Source: Lachnospiraceae bacterium (GTDB taxonomy: Bacteria; Bacillota; Clostridia; Lachnospirales; Lachnospiraceae). From it: a stretch of DNA of 34,150 nucleotides. Positions 20,051 through 34,150 of the stretch are shown here, piece by piece. The DNA is taken from the NCBI GenBank assembly GCA_024682555.1, contig JAIKZD010000086.1:1-34150 (forward strand), in the 5' to 3' direction. Every line of letters starts with the position of its first letter. Position 1 is the first letter of the stretch. The notes under the pieces were generated by a model. It saw only the letters and a program-made list of their open reading frames with translations, searched no databases and was not told the DNA's origin. Made by a program: the position numbers and the translations under genes.

Positions 20051-22990
20051 TCAGTCCTGACCATATGTAAGGTTCTCCGTTACATCAAATATATCCTTGT
20101 CTTCCTCGATCTTTTCCTCCGAGCCCACAACGCAGATGTGATCTCCCGTCGTTATGACCCTTACATAGGGCGCCAGAGCCCGTATATCCTCTTTCGTACA
20201 GTTTATCACCTGATCCCTCTCTCTCTGCAGGTTCTCATATTTTTCTCCCGCAAGATAGAGGCTCATTGCTCTTTTCCCTGCCATGCTGGGAGTGAGAGGG
20301 GTATCAAGTGCGGATACGGCACCTATGATGTATTTTGTCATATCCCTTTCATCCGCATCAAAACCTTCAAGGTATTCGGGCGCTTTATCATAGATCTCCA
20401 GAGTCTTTTTAAGGTTAGGATCCCTGTAGGAGGTAAAATAACAGTCTCCGTTTCTCAAAAACGAGCTCATACAGCCGTAGGCGCCGCCCTTTACCCTGAC
20501 ATTGGTCCACAGATAATCATATCCGAGCATCACCTTCATAACCCTCAGGGCACCCGTATACTTAAGTCCGGATCTGATGAAATTGCCGGCTTTTGCCACA
20601 TACTGTATCTTGGATGCGGTCTTGTAACCCGTCTTTTCATCAAAAAGCGTAAGGGGGTCGCCGCCCTTCTCATACGGATCTTTGTACAGACAGTCCGCAA
20701 ATTCCTCCGTAAGCTTAAGGATGTCCGAGTGATCCGGATCAGTCACGGTATAATCCACAAACATGTTCTCCTTCCGGAATATGATATTCATGACCCGTCT
20801 CATTCCGGTTATCAGATCCTCTTTTATCTCATCGAAGGAGGAGTCAAGTTTTTCGATATATCGATAAAAATTCACACCGGACATATGCTCGGACTGTGCC
20901 GCTGCAGCCGATATGCCCGAAAGAGCCCTGTGTGCGGCAAGTGAATGACCGGATGATATCATGGATGCCTGCATCCTCGATTTTATTATGCCTGTAAGCT
21001 CCTTAAGCCTTTTTTCATCCTCAAGCTTAGTGGTCTTTATCATCTCCTTTATCATGTCAAAGGCAAATTTCAGGCTGTTCTCGAAAACCTTGGCCTCAAA
21101 GGAAAAAGCCGTGGTATACCTTCCCGAATTGTCAGCATAAAAATATGTCATTGTGGAAGGAATGATCCCGCCGCTTTTTTCAAATATCTCATTGAACAGC
21201 TCATTATAGGTGAAGTGTTCCGTACTCATGAGTCCCAGAACGCTCTTGAGCATTCCGACATATTTAAGATCCCCGGTCCCGACATCCTTTATGTCAAAAA
21301 GTACCGTAAGATAGCCCACACCGTTTGTAAAGATCTCATGGGTGAGAACGGGTATGCCGGATGTCTTATTTTCCTTATATTGGAACGGCTTTGCTTCCTT
21401 TGTGATATCGGATATCTTAAGTAAGGGGATGGTCTCCATCGCTTCCTTACTGTCCTCTGTCTCCTGATACTCCCTGAGAGCCCTTGTATCCTCGACAAGT
21501 TTTATGATCTCATCCTCCGACAGGCTTTTTTTTAACTCAGCCATCTTTTCCCTTAACATTTCGTCCTTTTCGGCTGTAAGACCTTTTTTCGGTTTTAATA
21601 CGACAACGGCCGAATGGGGATTGTTTAAGAGATACTCTTCTATCAGTCCCTCAAAATATCCCGTTTCGATCCTTTCCCTCATAAGGGCATAGGTATCATT
21701 TGCTTCAATATGCATGAAGGGATCCGTCTCGTCATAAAGCCAGGAATCAAAGGAATCAAGTCCGTAGAAAAGTCCCTTGGGATACCCGCCGTAATCGGCC
21801 TCCCTGTATTTGAACTCAAGGGTGTTGACCGCAGCCCTCAGGGCTTTTTTATCGATCCCGTTCTTTACAAGGTTTCTTAAGGTATCGTTTATGATCTGCT
21901 TGAATCTTTCCAGATCCTTAAGGTTTGCATTTTCCGCGATTATGGAAAAATAGGGTTGATACACTCCGCTTTCGTAGGTACTCTGGATATCCGAACCGAT
22001 GCCCGAGTCAAGCAGGGCCTGGGTAACGGGGGCACCCGGTGAGGCAAGGAGAACCGTCTCAAGTATATCAAAGGCAACGTAAAGCTCTTTATTAAGGCTT
22101 GTATCAAGAACATAATTGATACTTAAATAGGTTTTGTCATTTGTGCTCTCTTCCGTTGTTATGCCGTACTCTTTTTCCACATAGCGCGTCTCGTTAAAAG
22201 GCTTCTGCAAAAGGATCTCCGTATTTATGTCTCTTCTGTCAAAAGCGCCGAGGTACTCTCTGTCAAGATAATCAAGCCTCTCCGCCATATCCATGTCACC
22301 ATAAAGATAGATATAGCTGTTGCTCGGATGATAATAGCTTCGGTGAAACTCCATGAATTTTTCATATGAGAGCTCGGGGATATGATCCGGATCGCCGCCG
22401 GATTCAAAACCATAAGCCGTATCGGGGAACAGGGCGTTGAATATCTCCCTTTCAAGAGCCGATTCCGGGGATGAAAAAGCGCCCTTCATCTCATTGTATA
22501 CCACACCGTTTATCCCTATTTCCCCGTCCTTTGAATCCAGCTCGTAATGCCAGCCTTCCTGCCTGAATATCTTTTCCTCGCGGTAGATGTTCGGATAGAA
22601 TACGGCATCAAGATAAACTCCCATAAGATTGTTGAAATCCTTGTCATTGCAGCTTGCAATGGGATATACGGTCTTATCGGGATAGGTCATGGCGTTAAGG
22701 AAAGTGTTTAATGAACCCTTTACCAGCTCCACAAAAGGATCCTTTACGGGATATTTCTTTGAGCCGCAAAGAACCGAGTGCTCCAGTATATGCGTAAGTC
22801 CTGTGCTGTCGATGGGAGGGGTCCTGAAACCTATATAGAATACCTTATTGTCATCATCATTTGACAGTAAGAAGATCCTTGCACCCGTTTTTTTGTGTCT
22901 GAGCAGCATTCCCCTGGAATTAAGGTCTTTTACGTCCTTTTCCTTTATGATCTCATATGCCTTAAGATCTTTTACCGAATCAGTCTTCAT
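20051..22990 (-). CDS. M16C zinc metallopeptidase (PreP/insulinase family)
   Basis: This is a zinc protease of the presequence-protease type that degrades short peptides inside a closed chamber. The inverted zinc motif HILEH (67-71) gives H67, E70 and H71, and the third ligand is E167 in YNEMKG. The 979-residue length and the central M16C-associated region match bacterial PreP-like enzymes with all four domains in one chain. No signal peptide is present, so it is probably cytosolic. The start is supported by AGGAGAGG 5 bases upstream. It overlaps the upstream sigma-like gene by 4 bases (ATGA). Natural substrates are unknown. Confidence 0.93.
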   Translation of the reverse strand: MKTDSVKDLKAYEIIKEKDVKDLNSRGMLLRHKKTGARIFLLSNDDDNKVFYIGFRTPPIDSTGLTHILEHSVLCGSKKYPVKDPFVELVKGSLNTFLNAMTYPDKTVYPIASCNDKDFNNLMGVYLDAVFYPNIYREEKIFRQEGWHYELDSKDGEIGINGVVYNEMKGAFSSPESALEREIFNALFPDTAYGFESGGDPDHIPELSYEKFMEFHRSYYHPSNSYIYLYGDMDMAERLDYLDREYLGAFDRRDINTEILLQKPFNETRYVEKEYGITTEESTNDKTYLSINYVLDTSLNKELYVAFDILETVLLASPGAPVTQALLDSGIGSDIQSTYESGVYQPYFSIIAENANLKDLERFKQIINDTLRNLVKNGIDKKALRAAVNTLEFKYREADYGGYPKGLFYGLDSFDSWLYDETDPFMHIEANDTYALMRERIETGYFEGLIEEYLLNNPHSAVVVLKPKKGLTAEKDEMLREKMAELKKSLSEDEIIKLVEDTRALREYQETEDSKEAMETIPLLKISDITKEAKPFQYKENKTSGIPVLTHEIFTNGVGYLTVLFDIKDVGTGDLKYVGMLKSVLGLMSTEHFTYNELFNEIFEKSGGIIPSTMTYFYADNSGRYTTAFSFEAKVFENSLKFAFDMIKEMIKTTKLEDEKRLKELTGIIKSRMQASMISSGHSLAAHRALSGISAAAAQSEHMSGVNFYRYIEKLDSSFDEIKEDLITGMRRVMNIIFRKENMFVDYTVTDPDHSDILKLTEEFADCLYKDPYEKGGDPLTLFDEKTGYKTASKIQYVAKAGNFIRSGLKYTGALRVMKVMLGYDYLWTNVRVKGGAYGCMSSFLRNGDCYFTSYRDPNLKKTLEIYDKAPEYLEGFDADERDMTKYIIGAVSALDTPLTPSMAGKRAMSLYLAGEKYENLQRERDQVINCTKEDIRALAPYVRVITTGDHICVVGSEEKIEEDKDIFDVTENLTYGQD

Positions 22991-23763
22991 TTATCCTCTC
23001 CTTTTATGCCTTCAATATATTCTATGTTATCACCTGAAAGAAAAACGGTTTCCCTTATCTCATCCGCATCAAGGGACAGCTCATCTGCCAGTTCCTCTAT
23101 GGTTATCTTCCGCTCAAGATCTTCGGACAGCTCCCTTGCCGCATCATTAAGCCTGTTAACCCTTTTTAGGACCTCATCCATGAGATCCGCATTATCAAGA
23201 TCGTCCATGATACATTTTTCCATTGCGTCCATGATCATCCTTATGACGAGTTCATCCGCCTCACCGGCGCTGTCGCACATTTCAACGGCCTTTTCTGCAA
23301 GAAGTACCGCAAGATTTCCTTCGCCCACAAGGTCTTCCGTAAGAACCCCCTGTCCCTCGTAAAGCCTGGCTATATCCTTTACGCTGTCAAGATAGAGCTC
23401 TGCAAATACCTCCTTGGGATCATCCTCCCGAAGAAGGATCCTTTCAAGGCTCTTTAACCGCCGTTTCCTGTTTTCTCCTGCGGGCTTACCCGCTTCTTTT
23501 TTGATGCTTTTTCCGGTTTTTGCGGGATCCTGTTCCCTGCATGATGCAAGCCTTTCCTCTTCGGTATCATAAAGGCTGATCCCCGACTCTTTAAGATATG
23601 CATATATAAGATCCAGATGCCCGTCCGACAGTCCGATGCCTGCCTCTTTCTCATCATCGGAAAAAAGTCTTTCCTTTATCTGGGCCTTTGACATCTTTTC
23701 ACCCTGACTCTTTGCAAGAGCCCGGATCTTTACAAGTTCCTTTTTTAAGGACAGTTCATCCAT
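22987..23763 (-). CDS. Sigma-70-like protein lacking region 4
   Basis: The 258-residue protein resembles a degenerate primary-type sigma factor. A region 1.1-like N-terminal part (about 25-66; LDLIYAYLKESGISLYD) is followed by a basic linker. Then comes a region 2-like block (about 115-180) that keeps the hydrophobic frame of sigma helices (IARLYEGQGVLTEDLVGEGNL) but not the usual aromatic -10-reading residues, then a region 3-like block (ITIEELADELSLDADEIRET). It ends there, with no region 4 helix-turn-helix. I start at the ATG at 23763 because GGATGGAG lies just upstream; the ATG four codons earlier has no site. It may bind RNA polymerase or another sigma without acting as a normal sigma factor; this is inference. 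Confidence 0.82.
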   Translation of the reverse strand: MDELSLKKELVKIRALAKSQGEKMSKAQIKERLFSDDEKEAGIGLSDGHLDLIYAYLKESGISLYDTEEERLASCREQDPAKTGKSIKKEAGKPAGENRKRRLKSLERILLREDDPKEVFAELYLDSVKDIARLYEGQGVLTEDLVGEGNLAVLLAEKAVEMCDSAGEADELVIRMIMDAMEKCIMDDLDNADLMDEVLKRVNRLNDAARELSEDLERKITIEELADELSLDADEIRETVFLSGDNIEYIEGIKGEDK

Positions 23764-23841
23764 ATAAAACTCCATCCGGATCAGATCTGTGATCCCTTAT
23801 CATATTCACGGGATGAAAGGGTCTGCATATCTTCCCGCATA

Positions 23842-24945: not shown

Positions 24946-27900
24946 ATGCCCGAAAAATATACTCTCGGAATAGATATAGGATCAACAACGGTCAAGGTCG
25001 CCATCTTAAATGATGCTCATGAACTTCTGTTCAGCGATTACCGCAGACATTATGCAAATATCCGTGAAACACTCAGTGATCTTGCCAAAGATGCCGAGGA
25101 AAAGCTGGGTAATATTACTCTCCATCCGATGATCACCGGTTCCGGCGGTCTGACCCTGGCAAAACATCTTGATATTCCCTTTGTACAGGAAGTAATAGCC
25201 GTATCCACCGCACTTACTGATCACAACAGCAAGGTGGACGTGGCAATAGAGCTTGGCGGGGAAGACGCCAAGATCATCTATTTTGAAGACGGCAACGTTG
25301 AACAGCGTATGAACGGTATCTGCGCCGGCGGAACCGGATCCTTCATCGATCAGATGGCCTCCCTTCTTCAGACCGATGCCTCGGGCCTGAACGAATATGC
25401 AAAAAACTACAACTCTCTCTATACAATAGCTGCCAGATGCGGGGTTTTTGCCAAATCCGACATCCAGCCCCTTATCAATGACGGCGCCACAAAAGAGGAT
25501 CTGTCAGCCTCCATCTTTCAGGCGGTTGTAAACCAGACCATATCGGGACTTGCCTGCGGAAAGCCCATACGCGGCTATGTTGCCTTTCTCGGCGGCCCGC
25601 TTCACTTTCTTTCGGAGCTTAAGGCTGCCTTCATAAGGACCTTAAAGCTTGACGATGAGCATATCATCGCCCCGGAAAACTCCCATCTGTTCGCTGCAAT
25701 GGGTGCCGCCCTCAATTACAGGGAAGATAACTGCATTGCTTTATCGGAGCTCAACCAAAAGCTTGGTCAGGATATAAAAATGGAATTCGAAGTGGCAAGG
25801 ATGGACCCTCTCTTTGAGGACGAAGAAGCCTACGGACAGTTCCTTGAAAGACATGAAAAACACAGGGTGAAGACCGCGGATCTCTCATCATATTCAGGCA
25901 ACTGCTATCTGGGTATCGATGCAGGTTCCACCACTACCAAGACTGCTCTCATATCGGAGAACGGTTCCCTTCTTCATTCCTTTTATTCCAACAATAACGG
26001 AAACCCTCTGGGGACGACATTACGTGCCATAAAGGAGATCTATTCCCTTCTTCCGGAAGGTGCAAAGATAGTCCATTCCTGCTCCACGGGATATGGCGAA
26101 TCCCTTATAAAAGCCGCTCTCCTTTTGGATCACGGTGAGGTCGAGACCGTCTCCCATTATTTTGCCGCAGCCTTCTTTGAGCCTGATGTGGACTGTATCC
26201 TGGATATCGGCGGACAGGACATGAAATGCATCAAGATAAAGGATCATTCCGTGGACAGCGTACAGCTGAATGAAGCCTGCTCCTCAGGATGCGGATCATT
26301 TATCGAAACCTTTGCAAAATCCCTTAACTATTCCGTTGAGGATTTTTCCAAAGAAGCACTTTTTGCAAAGCATCCCATCGATCTCGGAACAAGATGCACC
26401 GTCTTTATGAATTCAAAGGTCAAGCAGGCCCAGAAGGAAGGTGCCTCCGTTGCCGATATATCCGCGGGCCTTGCCTATTCTGTCATAAAGAATGCGCTTT
26501 TCAAGGTAATAAAGGTATCCGATGCCTCTTCTCTCGGGAAGAAAATAGTGGTTCAGGGCGGAACCTTTTATAATGATGCCGTCCTTCGTTCCTTTGAAAA
26601 GATCGCCGACTGCGAAGTGATAAGACCGGATATTGCAGGTATCATGGGAGCCTTCGGAGCCGCACTCATAGCAAGGGACCGTTATCCCGAGAAAAGCTCC
26701 ACCACCATGCTTTCCATAGATAAGATAAATTCTCTGGAATATACCACCACCATGGCCAAATGCAAGGGCTGCACCAACAGCTGCAGACTTACCGTCAATC
26801 GTTTTTCAGGCGGCAGGCAGTATATATCAGGAAACAGATGCGAGCGCGGTATCGGAAAACAGAAGAATGAACACAACCTCCCCAATCTTTTCGATTACAA
26901 GGAGCATCGTATATTTGATTACGAACCTTTGGATGAAGTCGCCGCAAAAAGGGGCATCATAGGCATACCGAGAGTCCTCAATATATATGAGAACTATCCC
27001 TTCTGGTTCACTTTTTTCACCGAGCTGAAGTACAGGGTCTTAATATCCCCGCGCTCATCTCACAAGATATACGAACTCGGAATAGAATCCATCCCCAGCG
27101 AATCGGAATGTTATCCCGCCAAGCTTGCCCACGGACATGTGGAATGGCTTATAAAACAGGGCATAACAAATATCTTCTATCCCGCCCTCTTCTACGAGAG
27201 ACGGGAATATGACGATGTGCCCAACCATTATAACTGTCCCATAGTCACCTCCTATTCCGAAAACATCCGCAACAACATGGATGAAATAAGCGACGGCAGC
27301 ATTAACTTCATGAACCCTTTCTTATCCTTTGAGTCCGAAGAGATCATCTCAAAGGGTCTTGCGGATTACTTTAAAGACATTCCCGGAGAGGAAGTTAAGG
27401 CTGCGGCCAAAAAAGCCTGGGCCGAAATGCAGAGTGCCAGGGATGACATGAAGAAAAAGGGCGAAGAGACCATAGAATATTTAAAGGCAAATGACAAACA
27501 CGGCATTGTACTTGCCGGCAGGCCTTATCATATAGATCCCGAGATAAACCACGGCATCCCAGAGATGATCAATTCATACGGTCTTGCGGTGCTTACCGAG
27601 GATTCCGTTGCCCACCTTAATCCCGTTAAGCATCCCATCCTCGTGGCCGATCAGTGGACCTATCACTCAAGGCTGTATGCCGCGGCCAATTATGTAAAGA
27701 CCACCGACTATCTCGATCTGGTACAGCTCAATTCCTTCGGCTGCGGTCTCGATGCCGTGACAACGGATCAGGTGGCCGACATCCTAAACGATTCGGGCAA
27801 GATCTACACCTGTTTAAAGATCGATGAAGTAAACAATCTCGGTGCCGCAAGAATCAGGATCCGCTCTCTCATCGCGGCAATAAATCTTAAAAAACGGGAG

Positions 27901-29181
27901 CATAAGGAAAGAAAGATAGTGAGTTCAACCTACCGCCGTGTCCTCTTTACGGAAGAAATGCGCAAAAACTACACGGTGATCTGTCCTAATATGTCCCCCA
28001 TCCATTTTGATATTCTGGAAAAGGCTTTTGCCGCCTGCGGCTACAATCTGGTGATCCCGGATAATTCCAACAGATCCGCCATAGATACCGGCCTCAAATA
28101 TGTCAACAATGATGCCTGCTATCCTTCGCTGATAGTTGTGGGACAGGTAATGGATGCCATCCTCTCCGGAGACTATGATACGGACCGTCTTGCCGTTGTG
28201 ATGACTCAGACGGGCGGCGGCTGCAGGGCGACCAATTATATCGCATTCATCAGAAGAGCTCTCAAGAATGCGGGCTATGAGCATATACCCGTCATATCCC
28301 TGAATCTTTCAAAGCTTGAGAGAAATCCCGGCTTCCATATCAACCTGGAAATGCTGATACGGGCAGGATATGCCGCCATATTCGGTGACATCTTCATGCG
28401 CTGCGTTTACAGGATGAGACCTTATGAGCTTAATCCCGGAGACACTGAAAAGGTTCACGCCAAATGGATTTCGAGATGTCAGGCCTTTGTTACGAAAAAA
28501 TACATGGGGCTTCGTGAATTCAATACAATGTGCAGGGAAATGATCCGTGAATTTGATTCGATCCCCATCGATGAGGAGCTTAAGAAACCCCGTGTCGGGA
28601 TCGTCGGTGAGATCCTTGTCAAATATTCCCCCACGGCAAACAACGATCTTGTGAACCTGATAGAATCAGAAGGCGCAGAGGCCGTGGTCCCCGACCTTAT
28701 AGACTTTATGTGCTACTGCTTCTACAACCAGATATACAAGGCCGACCATCTGGGGACCTCCAAAAAGACGGCCTTTTTATCCTCGCGTGGCATATGGCTT
28801 GTTAATACCCTGAGAAAGAGCGCGGCTAAGGAACTGAAAGCATCAAAGCATTTTGATGCACCTGTTGACATCAGACAGATAGTTAAATACGCCGAGGAGA
28901 TAGTTTCCATCGGCAATCAGACCGGTGAAGGCTGGTTCCTTACCGGCGAGATGATAGAACTCATTCATTCCGGAGTAAAGAACATCGTCTGCACCCAGCC
29001 CTTCGGCTGTCTTCCCAATCATGTTGTTGGAAAGGGAGTCATCAAGGAGGTGCGCCGTCATTACAGGGGATCCAATATCGTAGCCATCGACTATGATCCC
29101 GGCGCCAGCGAGGTTAATCAGCTTAACCGCATAAAGCTGATGCTTTCGACCGCATTTAAGGAGATCGAAAACAGATCATAA
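24946..29181 (+). CDS. 2-hydroxyacyl-CoA dehydratase activase / dehydratase-like fusion (BcrAD-BcrAD-HgdB type)
   Basis: This 1411-residue fusion has two ATP-hydrolysing electron-donor modules of the BadF/BcrA/HgdC family followed by an HgdB-like dehydratase part. Module 1 (about 1-300) has LGIDIGSTTVK and cysteines C126 and C165, one residue off the [4Fe-4S] ligands C127 and C166 of Acidaminococcus HgdC. Module 2 (about 320-585) has LGIDAGSTTTK with C445, C449 and C484. Next is a cysteine group C606, C609, C613, C632, then a DUF2229/HgdB-like region (about 645-1400; SECYPAKLAHGH, NDACYPSLIVVG, TQPFGCLPNHVVGKG). Such enzymes use ATP to fire low-potential electrons. No CoA-transferase or partner gene is adjacent, so the substrate is unknown. 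AGAGGAAAG lies upstream of the ATG. Confidence 0.92.
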   Translation: MPEKYTLGIDIGSTTVKVAILNDAHELLFSDYRRHYANIRETLSDLAKDAEEKLGNITLHPMITGSGGLTLAKHLDIPFVQEVIAVSTALTDHNSKVDVAIELGGEDAKIIYFEDGNVEQRMNGICAGGTGSFIDQMASLLQTDASGLNEYAKNYNSLYTIAARCGVFAKSDIQPLINDGATKEDLSASIFQAVVNQTISGLACGKPIRGYVAFLGGPLHFLSELKAAFIRTLKLDDEHIIAPENSHLFAAMGAALNYREDNCIALSELNQKLGQDIKMEFEVARMDPLFEDEEAYGQFLERHEKHRVKTADLSSYSGNCYLGIDAGSTTTKTALISENGSLLHSFYSNNNGNPLGTTLRAIKEIYSLLPEGAKIVHSCSTGYGESLIKAALLLDHGEVETVSHYFAAAFFEPDVDCILDIGGQDMKCIKIKDHSVDSVQLNEACSSGCGSFIETFAKSLNYSVEDFSKEALFAKHPIDLGTRCTVFMNSKVKQAQKEGASVADISAGLAYSVIKNALFKVIKVSDASSLGKKIVVQGGTFYNDAVLRSFEKIADCEVIRPDIAGIMGAFGAALIARDRYPEKSSTTMLSIDKINSLEYTTTMAKCKGCTNSCRLTVNRFSGGRQYISGNRCERGIGKQKNEHNLPNLFDYKEHRIFDYEPLDEVAAKRGIIGIPRVLNIYENYPFWFTFFTELKYRVLISPRSSHKIYELGIESIPSESECYPAKLAHGHVEWLIKQGITNIFYPALFYERREYDDVPNHYNCPIVTSYSENIRNNMDEISDGSINFMNPFLSFESEEIISKGLADYFKDIPGEEVKAAAKKAWAEMQSARDDMKKKGEETIEYLKANDKHGIVLAGRPYHIDPEINHGIPEMINSYGLAVLTEDSVAHLNPVKHPILVADQWTYHSRLYAAANYVKTTDYLDLVQLNSFGCGLDAVTTDQVADILNDSGKIYTCLKIDEVNNLGAARIRIRSLIAAINLKKREHKERKIVSSTYRRVLFTEEMRKNYTVICPNMSPIHFDILEKAFAACGYNLVIPDNSNRSAIDTGLKYVNNDACYPSLIVVGQVMDAILSGDYDTDRLAVVMTQTGGGCRATNYIAFIRRALKNAGYEHIPVISLNLSKLERNPGFHINLEMLIRAGYAAIFGDIFMRCVYRMRPYELNPGDTEKVHAKWISRCQAFVTKKYMGLREFNTMCREMIREFDSIPIDEELKKPRVGIVGEILVKYSPTANNDLVNLIESEGAEAVVPDLIDFMCYCFYNQIYKADHLGTSKKTAFLSSRGIWLVNTLRKSAAKELKASKHFDAPVDIRQIVKYAEEIVSIGNQTGEGWFLTGEMIELIHSGVKNIVCTQPFGCLPNHVVGKGVIKEVRRHYRGSNIVAIDYDPGASEVNQLNRIKLMLSTAFKEIENRS

Positions 29182-29294: not shown

Positions 29295-30323
29295 ATGGAT
29301 AATATATTAAATATCACCATCAATTTCATCCTGTTCATCTTTGCGATACTGTCCGTTGCCGTCTGCATTGATACGCTGCAAAGGCTTAAGGACAAAGAGG
29401 GCTGCAGACGTTTCAGAATGCTTTGTACAGCCTATGTCTGTATGCTTTTCGGAACCATAATCCTGTTTTATTCAAAAAACGGATCCTATACGGAGATCAT
29501 CGCCGTACAGTTTCTGTGGTTTTCTTTCGTCGCTCTTCTGGCTTCCTTTATATCAACACTGGCTTATGTCCTTGACGGATATGATAAGACCATATCGGTG
29601 GCAGTCTCCTGTTTCTGCTATTTCGGACTGATCACCATGATCATTGAACTGGTATGGGGCGGCTACAGGATAATAAACGCACCCACCGGGGTATTCTTTG
29701 AATCCACTCTCTCGCCTTATCATATGGACATCCTGTATATCGTACCCATAGCCGCATTTATCGTTCTGACCGTAAAACTGCTCATCGGATATCATCACAA
29801 CCGTAAAAAGAAATGCGAAAAGAGACTCTTTCAGATAACGCTCATATCGGTGATCATTTGTTTTGCCGGGCTGTTATGCGAGATCATCCTGGAACACTAT
29901 TTGGTCTATTACCCTGTTTTCAGGCTCTGTCTGTTGCCCTGTCTGATAATACTGAGAAACTGTCTCATGATCTCAAGAAGCGACAGACTTGTAAGAGACG
30001 ACTATGCGGAATATCTTTCCGACAGGTTAAGCATCCCGGTATACATTACGGACAGCGGCCTTAGGATCGCCTTCGAGAACGAGGCGGCAGAGGTTTTGGC
30101 TTCCATGTGCCATGAAGAGACCATCGGCATGAGGATTCCCGGATTGTTTGAAATTGACACCGAAACAGAAAAACGGCTTGCGGACGATATCCTCTATGAT
30201 GAGGACATGAACATATCCGCCACTCACAGAATAACCGGCAGGGAATACCTGATCACCGTAAAAAGGGTCATGGATACGGCCGGCGGCCTCTTAAGCAGCA
30301 TTCTTTTATGTTACGAAAAATAA
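29295..30323 (+). CDS. Seven-helix membrane sensor with PAS-like tail and no output domain
   Basis: The 342-residue protein has about seven membrane helices in the first 225 residues, resembling the 7TM sensor module found in front of many clostridial histidine kinases and diguanylate cyclases. A PAS-like domain follows (about 240-340; RLSIPVYITDSGLRIAFEN, EETIGMRIPGLFEI, ITGREYLITVKRV). The frame stops at the end of the PAS fold, and no kinase, GGDEF or phosphatase domain follows. It could be a complete short sensor or a remnant of a longer one. The ATG at 29295 is the first in frame, with a stop three codons before it, but it has no clear ribosome binding site. It is convergent with the STAS-NRPS gene, 15 bases apart. 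Confidence 0.78.
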   Translation: MDNILNITINFILFIFAILSVAVCIDTLQRLKDKEGCRRFRMLCTAYVCMLFGTIILFYSKNGSYTEIIAVQFLWFSFVALLASFISTLAYVLDGYDKTISVAVSCFCYFGLITMIIELVWGGYRIINAPTGVFFESTLSPYHMDILYIVPIAAFIVLTVKLLIGYHHNRKKKCEKRLFQITLISVIICFAGLLCEIILEHYLVYYPVFRLCLLPCLIILRNCLMISRSDRLVRDDYAEYLSDRLSIPVYITDSGLRIAFENEAAEVLASMCHEETIGMRIPGLFEIDTETEKRLADDILYDEDMNISATHRITGREYLITVKRVMDTAGGLLSSILLCYEK

Positions 30324-30338: not shown

Positions 30339-33300
30339 CTAATGAACCATCGCCAGTATACTGTCAATATCATCCTCTCTTAGCATTGCATCAAGAATAT
30401 CCTTAAAGTCCCCGGCAAATCCTTCCGCCTTCTCAGCCGAAAACAGATTTGAATGATAATCGATATTTATTGTATATGAACCGTCCTTTCTCTCAAAGGT
30501 CTGTATAATGAACTTAAGTTTTTCATATACGGCATTCTCCTGAAGATCCAGGACCTTTACGGGTTTTCCGTCCATTTCGTAATCTTCGGGATAATAGGGC
30601 TGGCAGCAGTATATGAAATCATACATGTTCGGATACTTCCCCATGATCTCGGAAAGAGGCATAATCGGAAACATCATGACATTGAACATGTTTCTCTTTA
30701 TCCTTGTCAGGAATGTCTCCACCGTGTCATCTTTTTTGATCTCAAAGAAGTTAAGAAGCACCGTTGAGATATAGCCTATGGTATTTGCAAGTCCCGAATC
30801 ATTCCGGCCGGTATACAGAGTGGCAAAGGACCCGCTTTGCGTTGAATTATGGGCCGACAGTATAAGTGAAAGTATGCCGAGGAAGACGATGCTTGAAGAA
30901 ATGTATTTTTCCCGGCAGAATTCCCTTAGTGCTTCCCCGTCCTGACAGATCACCGTTTCGTAATGAGCGGATCTCCATTCGCCGTTATCCTCATAATCCT
31001 CGGGCATGGAGCTTATGCCCGATATCTGCAGCAGATCCATATAGCTTTCCCTGCACCGCCTGCCTGCCCCGGTATCAAAAAAGCCGTGAAGATATTCGGA
31101 ATACTCCGTCATCGGGATACTTTCCTCCCGGAGTTTATTTCCTTCATAGGCGGCAATGATATCATCCGTAAGGATATTTATGGATTCACCGTCGGTGACA
31201 AGATGATTATATTCCGCTAACAGATATTTTTTATTAAGACATTCGATGATCTTAAAACTGAACAGCCATTTTGCATCCGGCGGTGTCGGTGTACTGTAGG
31301 TCATGGGATCTGCCAGTTCATCCGTGTCAAGCTTTATAACGGGTATTTCTACGTCCGAGATATCATCTTTTGGTATCTGCCAGACCGTACCTTCTTCATC
31401 CTGCTCAAAGCTGACCCTTAATCCCGGATGGATGCTTATGACCCTTAGCACGGCTTCCTTAAGCTTTTCCGTATCCACGGATGCGTCAAACACATACAGC
31501 ACCGGGAGATTTAAGTCATTGTTTCCCGCCATTGCTTCCAGATAATCATACATCTGAACATCCGGAACATGATATCTTGCAAGTTTTTTCAGATTCTTCC
31601 TTTTGGGAGAAGCAATGACAAATTCCTCAAGACTCAGTATGGTGGGATGATCCACTATATCGTTTACATTTACCGGGATGTTATACTCATCACCTATCAG
31701 CGAGATAAACAGCATCACATCTAGAGATGAAAGCCCGGTTTCGATGAGATCGGTATCGGTTCCGAAGTCATCATCATCCGTTACCTGCACCAGAAAATCA
31801 AACAGTTTTCTCTGGATATCGGTCTCCGGGGCCCTTCTGTTCTTAGCCTCGGGTTTTACCGTCGGAAGGGCTTTTCTGTCTACCTTCATGTTGGCTGTCA
31901 TCGGCATCTCATCAAGCTTTACATAGATATCGGGATGCATATAATGGGCAAGATGATCCTTTGCATAGGCTCTCAGCTCATTCTCCGAAACACCGGAGTC
32001 CGAAACATAATAAAGGCACAGATATTTACCTTCCAGCGAAGCCGCAACACAGCTGTCGATGCCCGGCATCCCGCTCATCAGCGACTCAACCTCCAAAAGC
32101 TCTACCCGAAGGCCTCTTATCTTTACCTGATAATCCTTTCTGAAGAGGTATTCGATCTCCCCTTTTTCGTTTATACGGCACATATCCCCGCTTTTATAGG
32201 CACGCATGCCGTTATGGGTGAAAAAGGCTTTTTTTGTTTCTTCCGGAAGATTTAAATAACCTCGTCCCACACATTTACCGCAGATTATGAGTTCACCGAT
32301 CTCCCCTTTCGGGACTTCATTATTGTTCATGTCTGCCACAAAGGTATGGACATTGGCATTTGGAAATCCTATGGTGATATCTTCTTCGCTCGTTAACACC
32401 TTCATGGTACAGCTTATGGTGGTCTCGGTAGGTCCGTACCCGTTCATGATATATACGTCCTTATTGACATCTCTTATCTTATTGTAGAGACTTGCGGGAA
32501 ATGCTTCCGCACCGATATCGGCAACCTTAAGCCTGGAAAGTGCCTCCTTCGCTGCGGGAAGCTTTAACAGAGCTGTCAGATATGCGGGAGTGAAAACAGC
32601 TCCATCCACCTCATATTTATTCATCAGACCGATCATCTTAAGCGGATCCGATATTTCGCTTAAGCGTGCCATCACAACGGTATTTCCGGACACGAGCGGA
32701 ACGAACATCTCCATTATCGAAACATCAAAAGTCATGGCCGCCATGGCAAGAAGCCGCCTGCTTCTGTCTGCCAATCCCCTGTATTCCCCGTTATCCTGTG
32801 TATCCGTAAGGAAATTCGAAAGATTTCCGTGTTCGATCATGACGCCTTTGGGGTTTCCGGTGGAACCGGAGGTATATATGATATAGCAGAGATCCGATGA
32901 GTATATGACCCTCCCCGGGTTCCCGGTATAAGGGAACGTGATCATATTCTCATAAAACAGAGGCCTTTTCATCAGTTTATCCACAAAGAGTTCCAGTCTT
33001 TCATAGACCATGGCTTTGGATGAGATAATGAAGGCAGCAGCCGAATCGTCATGAATATATTTGATACGCTGATCGGGATAAAGGGGATCTGCAATGACAT
33101 AGGCACAGCCCATCTTAAGTACGCCTAAGATCGCGGCATATACCTCAATGCCCCTGTTTAACATTATCATCACCACATCCCCATGCCTTATACCCATGAA
33201 CATCAGGCTGTTTGCTATCCTGTTTGCGGCAGCGTTAAGCTCTTCATAGGTAAAGGATCCCTTTGAGGATACCACTGCTTCCTTATGAGGGTGAAGACAT

Positions 33301-33743
33301 GCCTCTTCTTCGAAACGGGTGATAACGGATATAAAATCCTTATCCGTCTCTATCCTGTCATCCGCTTCCCGGCCCGTGATTCCGGGTATTATATTATCTG
33401 CTCCGGCATCGTCCTTATCCGGAGCATCCGTCTCCGTTTTTCTTTCTATCCCCAGGATATCTTCAAGTCCCGTGATGGATATCGTTTCATATACCTGATC
33501 CGACACATTCTTTATCGAAAAGTCGTGACATTTTTTCCTGAGCTTTAAAAGGATACGGATACCCGCCGAAGAAATATACTCAAGGTTACCGGCTTCCACC
33601 TGCGTTCTGTCTATGGTCTTTCCTTCGGATAAAAGCTTTTCCGCATAATCTTCTATCTCTTTGTCAAGTCTGAGTGCAGTGTCATAATCCAGGGCTTCGT
33701 CAAAGTCAATGAAGAGTTCTCCGTTATCATATGATAATCTCAT
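30339..33743 (-). CDS. STAS-adenylation-carrier-condensation fusion (NRPS-like)
   Basis: The 1134-residue protein joins a signalling domain to a nonribosomal peptide synthetase module. STAS domain about 1-100: YISSAGIRIL places S59 where SpoIIAA/RsbV are phosphorylated. After an acidic linker comes an adenylation domain (about 140-635) with A3 YTSGSTGNPKG, A5 NGYGPTETT, A7 KSGD, A8 DYQVKIRGLRVE and A10 lysine K620. A carrier domain (about 640-715) has GLSSLDVM with Ppant serine S673. A C-terminal condensation domain (about 735-1134) has NHLVTDG with catalytic H847 and D851 but Asn in place of the first His. The A-T-C order implies loading an amino acid and joining it to an acceptor. The start is supported by GGGGAGGAA. 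The product is unknown. Confidence 0.92.
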   Translation of the reverse strand: MRLSYDNGELFIDFDEALDYDTALRLDKEIEDYAEKLLSEGKTIDRTQVEAGNLEYISSAGIRILLKLRKKCHDFSIKNVSDQVYETISITGLEDILGIERKTETDAPDKDDAGADNIIPGITGREADDRIETDKDFISVITRFEEEACLHPHKEAVVSSKGSFTYEELNAAANRIANSLMFMGIRHGDVVMIMLNRGIEVYAAILGVLKMGCAYVIADPLYPDQRIKYIHDDSAAAFIISSKAMVYERLELFVDKLMKRPLFYENMITFPYTGNPGRVIYSSDLCYIIYTSGSTGNPKGVMIEHGNLSNFLTDTQDNGEYRGLADRSRRLLAMAAMTFDVSIMEMFVPLVSGNTVVMARLSEISDPLKMIGLMNKYEVDGAVFTPAYLTALLKLPAAKEALSRLKVADIGAEAFPASLYNKIRDVNKDVYIMNGYGPTETTISCTMKVLTSEEDITIGFPNANVHTFVADMNNNEVPKGEIGELIICGKCVGRGYLNLPEETKKAFFTHNGMRAYKSGDMCRINEKGEIEYLFRKDYQVKIRGLRVELLEVESLMSGMPGIDSCVAASLEGKYLCLYYVSDSGVSENELRAYAKDHLAHYMHPDIYVKLDEMPMTANMKVDRKALPTVKPEAKNRRAPETDIQRKLFDFLVQVTDDDDFGTDTDLIETGLSSLDVMLFISLIGDEYNIPVNVNDIVDHPTILSLEEFVIASPKRKNLKKLARYHVPDVQMYDYLEAMAGNNDLNLPVLYVFDASVDTEKLKEAVLRVISIHPGLRVSFEQDEEGTVWQIPKDDISDVEIPVIKLDTDELADPMTYSTPTPPDAKWLFSFKIIECLNKKYLLAEYNHLVTDGESINILTDDIIAAYEGNKLREESIPMTEYSEYLHGFFDTGAGRRCRESYMDLLQISGISSMPEDYEDNGEWRSAHYETVICQDGEALREFCREKYISSSIVFLGILSLILSAHNSTQSGSFATLYTGRNDSGLANTIGYISTVLLNFFEIKKDDTVETFLTRIKRNMFNVMMFPIMPLSEIMGKYPNMYDFIYCCQPYYPEDYEMDGKPVKVLDLQENAVYEKLKFIIQTFERKDGSYTINIDYHSNLFSAEKAEGFAGDFKDILDAMLREDDIDSILAMVH

Positions 33744-33780
33744 GTGGGTGATTCCTCCCCGTCTGATATGTAATGCTCAT

Positions 33781-33851: not shown

Positions 33852-34150
33852 ATGCTCAAATCAAATGATGTGAAAAATGATCAAACGGCCAAAAAGGGAA
33901 ATTTCGGTGAGGGAAAGATAGGCACCCTCATACTTTCCCAGGCCATACCTTTAACCCTTGCACAGCTTGTGCAGGTCATATACAACATAGTAGACAGGGT
34001 CTATTTGGGCCATATGTCCGGTGAGACCGAGGGTATCGCTCTTACCGGTGTGGGTCTTACATTTCCGGTAATAAGCCTGACAGCCGCTTTCATCAACCTC
34101 TTTGCCACAGGCGGGGCGCCCCTCTGCGCAATGGCCCGCGGTTCCAAAAA
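33852..34150 (+). CDS. MATE family efflux transporter, 3' truncated
   Basis: This is a membrane exporter of the multidrug and toxin extrusion family, driven by Na+ or H+, cut by the right edge after about 99 residues. A hydrophilic N-terminus (MLKSNDVKNDQTAKKGNFGEG) leads into the first MATE helix: KIGTLILSQAIPLTLAQLVQ, then YNIVDRVYLGHMSG and GIALTGVGLTFPV, characteristic of the family. The ATG at 33852 gives the full N-terminus but has no ribosome binding site; a GTG at 33870 is an alternative start. It is divergent from the STAS-NRPS gene with 108 bases between starts, so the two may be co-regulated and the transporter may export the NRPS product, by inference. Confidence 0.9.
   Translation, partial: MLKSNDVKNDQTAKKGNFGEGKIGTLILSQAIPLTLAQLVQVIYNIVDRVYLGHMSGETEGIALTGVGLTFPVISLTAAFINLFATGGAPLCAMARGSK

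Follow-up and report, generated by a model that had tools for sequence, protein, structure and literature searches.

An N-terminal STAS domain on a one-module non-ribosomal peptide synthetase of a Lachnospiraceae bacterium, a candidate for control by partner switching

The stretch of DNA analyzed here (the window) is the whole of contig JAIKZD010000086.1 (contig C92 in our numbering), i.e., 34,150 bases of a Lachnospiraceae genome of 3.1 Mb in 159 contigs. Toward its right end, a gene on the minus strand encodes a protein in which a STAS domain precedes adenylation (A), carrier (T) and condensation (C) domains, which together make up one module of a non-ribosomal peptide synthetase (NRPS). The features of this locus are listed below, with mean confidence of the structure models given as predicted local distance difference test (pLDDT) and structural likeness as template modeling (TM) score.

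30339..33743, minus strand: complete gene, 1134 residues, in the order STAS, linker, A, T (peptidyl carrier) and C (open reading frame list and Pfam)
33754..33760, minus strand: GGGGAGG, a ribosome-binding-like site before the start codon of the STAS part (sequence reading)
33435..33743, minus strand: STAS domain, residues 1-103 (Pfam, E 1.2e-6; AlphaFold2 model, pLDDT 95.2; Foldseek match 1th8_B, TM 0.81)
33567..33569, minus strand: codon of S59, a putative phosphoserine (alignment with RsbV; conservation)
33327..33434, minus strand: linker, residues 104-139 (low model confidence, with pLDDT below 50 at residues 101-137 in a full-length model that is poor overall)
31869..33326, minus strand: adenylation domain, residues 140-625, with YTSGSTGNPKG at 290-300, FDVS containing D340, and K620 (Pfam, TIGR01733, alignment)
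31608..31826, minus strand: carrier domain, residues 640-712 (Pfam PP-binding, 656-709)
30351..31601, minus strand: terminal condensation domain, residues 715-1131 (Pfam, 724-1122, E 6.7e-32)
31188..31208, minus strand: condensation motif NHLVTDG, residues 846-852 (alignment)
33852..34148, plus strand: first part of a divergently oriented MATE transporter gene that runs off the contig (open reading frame list, comparison)

The STAS-A-T-C order proposed in the initial annotation was borne out. The synthetase gene occupied a single open reading frame, exactly 30339-33743, without internal stop, and all of its domains scored above the Pfam cut-offs, namely STAS (residues 10-103, E 1.2e-6, 28.6 bits against a cut-off of 22.6), AMP-binding (144-497, E 1.9e-77), AMP-binding_C (551-620, E 1.3e-6), PP-binding (656-709, E 8.9e-9) and Condensation (724-1122, E 6.7e-32). 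The GGGGAGG site stood 10 nt upstream of the ATG that opens the STAS part, and residues 90-150 contained no in-frame ATG, GTG or TTG; hence, the STAS and adenylation domains are translated in one piece. A promoter scan upstream of the gene listed no site.

A model of residues 1-105, built with AlphaFold2 from 19 STAS domains, gave a STAS fold with a mean pLDDT of 95.2, in line with the earlier assignment of the first hundred residues, while the full-length model, built from six sequences, reached a mean pLDDT of 63. The five best solved structures retrieved by Foldseek were all SpoIIAA chains of SpoIIAB complexes, with 1th8_B in first place, followed by an anti-sigma-factor antagonist from Haliangium (matches 6 and 7) and by RsbV of the RsbV/RsbW complex (matches 8 and 9). 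Over the query length, TM scores were 0.81-0.82 for SpoIIAA in complex and 0.72-0.75 for RsbV; STAS domains of SulP/SLC26 transporters were also retrieved, less well. By sequence, residues 1-104 found weak matches in the PDB, the best being RsbV at E 0.097, and in this weak match S59 aligned with the serine of the RsbV "MDSTG" motif, which we take to be the RsbV phosphosite. In the STAS model, S59 is the first residue of a helix spanning residues 59-71. The position was a serine in all seven fused copies found, being invariant in the six aligned fusions and present in 19 of 19 aligned STAS domains, seventh fusion included, as well as in 37 of 37 STAS domains recognized by a local profile in the fetched loci. 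S59 was therefore retained at the usual phosphorylation position, as first suggested. As judged from sequence and model, two marks of a partner-switching antagonist are present, the STAS fold and a serine at the conserved place. The mark of a SulP/SLC26-type protein is missing, since the STAS domain lies N-terminal to an NRPS and Pfam shows no transporter domain.

In its adenylation and carrier domains, the synthetase part carried what is expected of an NRPS module. The adenylation domain scored 353 bits against the cut-off of 317 of the NCBIfam amino acid adenylation model TIGR01733 and contained its core motifs (YTSGSTGNPKG, D340 and K620); the carrier domain had a serine, S673, at the place expected for phosphopantetheine attachment. 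D340, K620 and S673 were invariant in the six aligned fusions, which are 36-54 % identical to the window protein, and invariance across such divergence argues for lasting selection on the frame. The condensation domain was less regular. Compared with HHxxxDG, its motif NHLVTDG retains the second histidine (H847), D851 and G852, while the first histidine is replaced. The same held for all seven fused copies, in which the first position was N, S, P or A and the second histidine, the aspartate and the glycine were kept; among comparison condensation domains, both histidines were retained in 34 of 35, the 35th being without a match to the motif. Pfam found no thioesterase or second module in the window protein. 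In genomes G034, G009 and G030 the fusion was the sole condensation domain found, so that no second module bearing such a domain was found there. A free amine or a carrier elsewhere would thus have to serve as acceptor in any condensation reaction.

The fusion was present in at least 7 of 37 genomes of the genus, the window genome included, among 61 genomes searched (24 of them outside the genus); as up to 12 candidates were scored per genome, this figure is a lower bound. Over the matched stretch, identity to the window protein was 55 % in G034, 50 % in G030, 49 % in G009, 40 % in G023, 39 % in G024 and 38 % in G016. The frame of the G030 copy is split by one internal TAG, and that of the G023 copy reaches the contig end. 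Three overlapping surveys (392 genomes of the order, 397 of the family and 398 of the phylum), which contain hardly any genomes of the genus and scored two candidates per genome at an E cut-off of 1e-100 or 1e-180, gave the window gene as the sole match reaching the STAS start. Five further matches began inside the STAS region (model positions 54-77; G426, G491, G1017, G199 and G040), and none of them had a fused STAS domain on inspection. Plasmid searches gave ordinary NRPS and MATE relatives only, among the matches listed, and the scan of a named genome collection with a single-protein query gave one distant ligase.

In a tree of 52 adenylation domains, the seven fusions formed one clade (support 100/100). 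With midpoint rooting, this clade was sister (100/97) to the module-1 adenylation domains of four three-module NRPSs from genomes outside the genus, G279, G332, G471 and G553, of which G279 and G332 belong to another family. Module 1 of these enzymes shares with the window protein the sister adenylation domain and the A-T-C order. They differ from it in having three modules, an intact HHxxxDG motif and, where STAS is present, a separately encoded STAS protein. An origin by simple joining of an operon's STAS to its NRPS was considered and dropped: the adenylation tree fits it, the STAS tree does not (with weak support), and the condensation tree, in which the branches of the fused group are long, leaves their placement unresolved. 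Only the kinship of the adenylation domain is retained here. Since the fused STAS domains stand next to STAS-APH fusions, either the operon's own STAS was not simply the source of the fused one, or the STAS tree is in error at such a length of sequence.

The gene neighborhoods of these sister enzymes bring partner-switching components close to the NRPS. At all four loci, the NRPS adjoins, on the same strand, a gene for a MATE transporter carrying an RsbW-like kinase domain of the HATPase_c_2 family. The run in G279 comprises seven genes on one strand, i.e., a MATE-HATPase_c_2 fusion whose open reading frame overlaps the NRPS start (per the frame calls), the NRPS, a phosphopantetheinyl transferase, a STAS protein, an LPG_synthase_C protein, a dCache-HAMP-SpoIIE phosphatase and an RsbW-like kinase. 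In G471, MATE-HATPase, NRPS, phosphopantetheinyl transferase, STAS and SpoIIE follow one another on one strand; in G332, a MATE-HATPase gene cut by the contig start is followed by the NRPS, a 228-residue gene, STAS and the contig end. In G553, MATE-HATPase and NRPS are present, and neither STAS nor SpoIIE was detected downstream of them. The LPG_synthase_C gene of G279 (L128:12324-13268), whose product is phosphatidylglycerol lysyltransferase-like, may hint at membrane-linked chemistry.

Similar runs were seen elsewhere. NRPS, STAS and SpoIIE genes lie on one strand in L043 (G032:C2), L044 (G032:C167), L045 (G035:C140) and L149 (G698, with MATE-HATPase), and STAS and SpoIIE share strand and gene run with an NRPS in L043, L044, L045, L128, L143 and L149. 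In G006:C121, a partly fetched SpoIIE-HATPase gene, two NRPS genes, STAS and MATE stand on one strand. By local profile, ten loci (L040, L047, L052, L117, L118, L127, L128, L143, L144 and L149) have a MATE-HATPase gene next to an NRPS gene, and in eight of them Pfam scored HATPase_c_2 above its cut-off (L127 through the overlapping L098); L040 fell below it and L118 was not listed. Selection of these loci rested on apparent linkage or on a top score in a profile search, and the counts are therefore not frequencies. The local profiles were built from Pfam-checked proteins and many neighbors were typed by them only; Pfam bore out the typing for the parts of G471, G553 and G698. Linkage was also counted against the expectation from random placement. 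Of 35 SpoIIE genes, 7 lay no more than 5 kb from a condensation domain (0.53 expected), as did 6 of 78 MATE-HATPase genes among the matches listed (0.67 expected) and 4 of 53 unfused STAS genes (0.67 expected). This count used rounded genome sizes and, for STAS and SpoIIE, 14 genomes of the genus, leaving aside the seven fused STAS domains, matches in G040 and G048, which belong to other genera, SpoIIE matches weaker than about 1e-10 and MATE-HATPase matches not spanning the model. Full-length MATE-HATPase fusions occur in at least 29 of 37 genus genomes; in the order sample, a match at 1e-100 was found in 34 of 392 genomes with three candidates scored per genome, the match in G352 covering the transporter part only. 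The N-box pattern E..N was present in 30 of 34 MATE fusions compared, and 34 of 47 HATPase_c_2 domains in a chosen list were MATE transporter tails. The expectation that came with the initial annotation, linked SpoIIE and RsbW-like kinase genes, was realized in the relatives of the NRPS part and failed at the window locus, where none was found.

RsbW and SpoIIAB kinases bind and phosphorylate the unphosphorylated antagonist, and SpoIIE reverses this, as known for SpoIIAA/SpoIIAB and RsbV/RsbW. With middling confidence, we read the window protein as an amino-acid-activating amide synthetase of one A-T-C module whose N-terminal STAS domain would act like SpoIIAA or RsbV, synthesis or docking being switched through S59. 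The basis of this reading is the architecture, the fold, the conserved serine and the kinship of the adenylation domain with NRPSs encoded beside a MATE-kinase gene, in two genomes together with STAS and SpoIIE. We infer from it the phosphorylation of S59, the identity of the partner and the effect on synthesis. In such a scheme, an ATPase domain of the RsbW/SpoIIAB type would bind the unphosphorylated STAS domain and phosphorylate S59, and a SpoIIE-type phosphatase driven by an external sensor would reset it. Binding would hold the synthetase at a partner or free it from one, so that the switch might bear on synthesis or on localization, and synthesis, or its coupling to export, would follow the signal without new transcription. 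Candidate kinases in the relatives would be free RsbW homologs or the cytoplasmic tails of MATE exporters.

Several observations weigh against a switched synthetase, beginning with the loss of the first histidine of the condensation motif. In the window's own genome (assembly 95.7 % complete), no HATPase_c_2 or RsbW-like kinase scored above the Pfam cut-off, whereas each of the six other fusion-bearing genomes has such a match. This genome has four STAS matches and two SpoIIE matches, the latter both above cut-off and one of them strong (G000:C55:19839-20420, E 6.9e-44; the other in a 251-residue frame, E 2.5e-7), i.e., a SpoIIE/PP2C-type phosphatase is present and the cognate RsbW/SpoIIAB-like kinase is absent over the cut-off. 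A profile of fused HATPase domains gave six weak matches in this genome; of the two checked, one is a histidine kinase and the best is the C-terminal part of an AMP ligase (L126:3657-5672), in which Pfam calls no HATPase_c_2. Near the fusion, no RsbW-like kinase or SpoIIE gene was found in the window, by Pfam in 18 of 23 open reading frames and by local STAS, SpoIIE and HATPase profiles in all 23. What the contig contains gives no support to the divergent MATE gene as the partner kinase: its visible part is closest to a plain MATE (L094:1132-2544, 77 % identity over 86 residues; 33 % to the best MATE-kinase fusion), the gene being cut by the contig end. Further, gene neighbors of the fusion vary between relatives, beyond the genus no inspected relative of the NRPS part has a fused STAS, and in the STAS tree the fused domains group with those of STAS-APH fusions, not with the free STAS proteins of NRPS operons (92/85, not a starred branch). 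Regarding linkage, at 3 kb the counts fall to 2 SpoIIE, 3 MATE-HATPase and 3 STAS (0.39, 0.50 and 0.50 expected); G023 and G035 share similar loci, so that the cases are not independent and the P values are too small. Some MATE tails are degenerate, four of 34 being without the N-box pattern, in addition to the L040 tail below the Pfam cut-off and the unlisted one of L118.

The alternative that survives best, which we consider somewhat unlikely, is that the STAS domain serves as a module for constitutive docking or ligand binding, by dimerizing, by binding a nucleotide or lipid or by retaining a carrier protein, as in SulP/SLC26 proteins and YchM, phosphorylation having no part in its function. 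The STAS domain of Escherichia coli YchM binds the acyl carrier protein, and here a carrier domain lies within the same protein; the own genome's want of a kinase above cut-off and the lesser Foldseek matches to SulP/SLC26 domains point the same way. Against such a module speak the best structural matches, which are kinase-bound antagonists, the invariant serine at the phosphosite, and the kinase-like and phosphatase genes that stand with the closest NRPS relatives.

Decay or repurposing of the synthetase is a less likely explanation still. According to it, the module came off a larger NRPS and, with a drifting condensation domain, would at most charge its carrier with an amino acid to be used by another enzyme. 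The first motif histidine lost in seven of seven copies, the long branches of the fused condensation domains, the internal TAG of the G030 copy, the lack of a thioesterase or second module and the fusion's being the only condensation domain found in three genomes all agree with this. However, the rest of the motif is retained in every copy, and the invariance of the carrier serine and adenylation residues at 36-54 % identity bespeaks long selection. SpoIIAA and RsbV release sigma factors, and it is conceivable, with a very low probability in our view, that the STAS domain of the NRPS titrates an anti-sigma factor, the synthetase sensing the supply of amino acids in the cytoplasm and setting a sigma factor free. 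The STAS domain does match SpoIIAA and RsbV best, but the four genes near free RsbW-like genes that were put to Pfam encode an M18 peptidase, a radical SAM protein, a GNAT acetyltransferase and a YicC-type nuclease, with no sigma factor among them, and most of the listed HATPase_c_2 domains are MATE tails. Finally, an assembly or annotation artefact joining two genes, conceivable in an assembly of 159 contigs of which the window is one, is practically excluded, along with the frameshift feared at the outset: six further genomes of the genus have a gene of this architecture, all forming one clade with the window gene, and there is one ribosome-binding-like site with no internal start near the linker.

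Returning to the switched synthetase, many kinase domains of the genus are exporter tails, and the STAS domain may therefore dock the synthetase at an exporter. A wider form of this idea, which we regard as doubtful, is that RsbW-like domains on MATE exporters, and degenerate ones on SDF symporters, dock STAS-bearing enzymes (NRPS, ligase and APH-type kinase), so that substrate or product would be channeled; phosphorylation at S59 would release the enzyme and a sensor-driven SpoIIE would allow it to dock again. If so, what partner switching governs would be not sigma factors but the assembly of a metabolon at the membrane. The output of an NRPS is commonly seen as a matter of transcription and of the supply of substrate. 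If the reading as a switched synthetase is right, a phospho-switch built into the enzyme would let bacteria control a secreted small molecule quickly and reversibly, and partner switching would extend from sigma factors to enzymes and transporters. The pattern of NRPS, exporter-kinase fusion, STAS and sensor-SpoIIE in one gene run would be a handle for finding more such clusters.

NRPSs and partner switching are both known, and here they are joined in one protein. With SpoIIAA and RsbV, partners of SpoIIAB and RsbW, the window protein shares the STAS fold and the phosphosite serine; those are single-domain proteins acting on sigma factors, whereas here the STAS domain is the N-terminus of an NRPS. 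Its adenylation and carrier domains resemble those of LgrA, the linear gramicidin synthetase (E 2.6e-154), but LgrA-type solved NRPSs are multi-module and, to our knowledge, no STAS domain occurs in them. Indigoidine is the product of a one-module NRPS. TciR of Vogesella indigofera, which combines a receiver with an RsbW-like domain, affects indigoidine production; this bacterium is described as lacking an RsbV homolog, and the passages of the paper considered here report no STAS domain on that synthetase (PMC12826045). The same passages describe SypA/SypE of Vibrio fischeri, in which a STAS protein is switched by an RsbW-like kinase and a PP2C-type phosphatase with a post-transcriptional output; there, SypA stands apart from any enzyme, and biofilm is the output (PMC12826045). 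A further precedent is all4160 of Anabaena, a glycosyltransferase with an N-terminal STAS domain (PMC8256260), which likewise has STAS at the N-terminus of a biosynthetic enzyme but belongs to another enzyme class. No description of the STAS-NRPS architecture or of the operon was found in the open full-text literature searched, outside which lie most subscription papers and preprints, so that the earlier view of the architecture as undescribed stood within that scope. New here are the sister adenylation domains in three-module NRPSs beside a MATE-RsbW-like fusion, two of these loci also having free STAS and SpoIIE genes.

STAS and HATPase domains were joined to other proteins as well. In the own genome, STAS lies at the N-terminus of APH/choline-kinase-like phosphotransferases (L057:341-1513 on C119 and L058:6226-7473 on C77); in G016 and G023 (L051 and L067), STAS-APH genes adjoin SpoIIE phosphatase genes. 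AMP ligases carry a fused STAS domain in L061 and L062. In L061:4151-7717 (G013:C108), a STAS-AMP ligase gene is followed 24 bases later by a gene for an SDF symporter with a HATPase_c_2-like domain, so that, by sequence, neighboring genes attach one half of a partner switch to an enzyme and the other half to a transporter. The HATPase_c_2-like domain at the N-terminus of the SDF symporters (L053, L061) is below the Pfam cut-off, and its N-box, inspected by eye, seems degenerate. In L065:4989-6362 and L066:4913-6205, STAS is C-terminal to a part of about 330-360 residues, in which Pfam assigned no further family in L065. The AMP ligase L126:3657-5672 of the own genome (C88) has a C-terminal part of about 130 residues that weakly resembles an RsbW-like ATPase (22.7 bits, below the Pfam threshold); from its sequence, it could be the missing partner. 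Two MATE-HATPase_c_2 proteins, L082:4396-7056 and L083:4203-6869 (886 and 888 residues), bear about 300 extra C-terminal residues without an assigned domain. On own-genome contig C11, an NRPS lies beside a MATE with a long tail, which gave no HATPase signal even at maximal sensitivity.

Elsewhere in the window, positions 29295-30323 encode a 342-residue protein, convergent with the synthetase gene, whose N-terminal half is hydrophobic by eye and which matched no Pfam family above cut-off. The frame at 22987-23775 (262 residues) shows weak sigma-70 similarity (region 3 above cut-off at 1.3e-6, region 2 below) and adjoins an M16-type peptidase gene. Positions 33-2186 encode a hybrid sensor histidine kinase of the order dCache-HAMP-HisKA-HATPase-receiver, and positions 24946-29181 a CoA-enzyme activase of 1411 residues with BcrAD_BadFG and DUF2229 domains.

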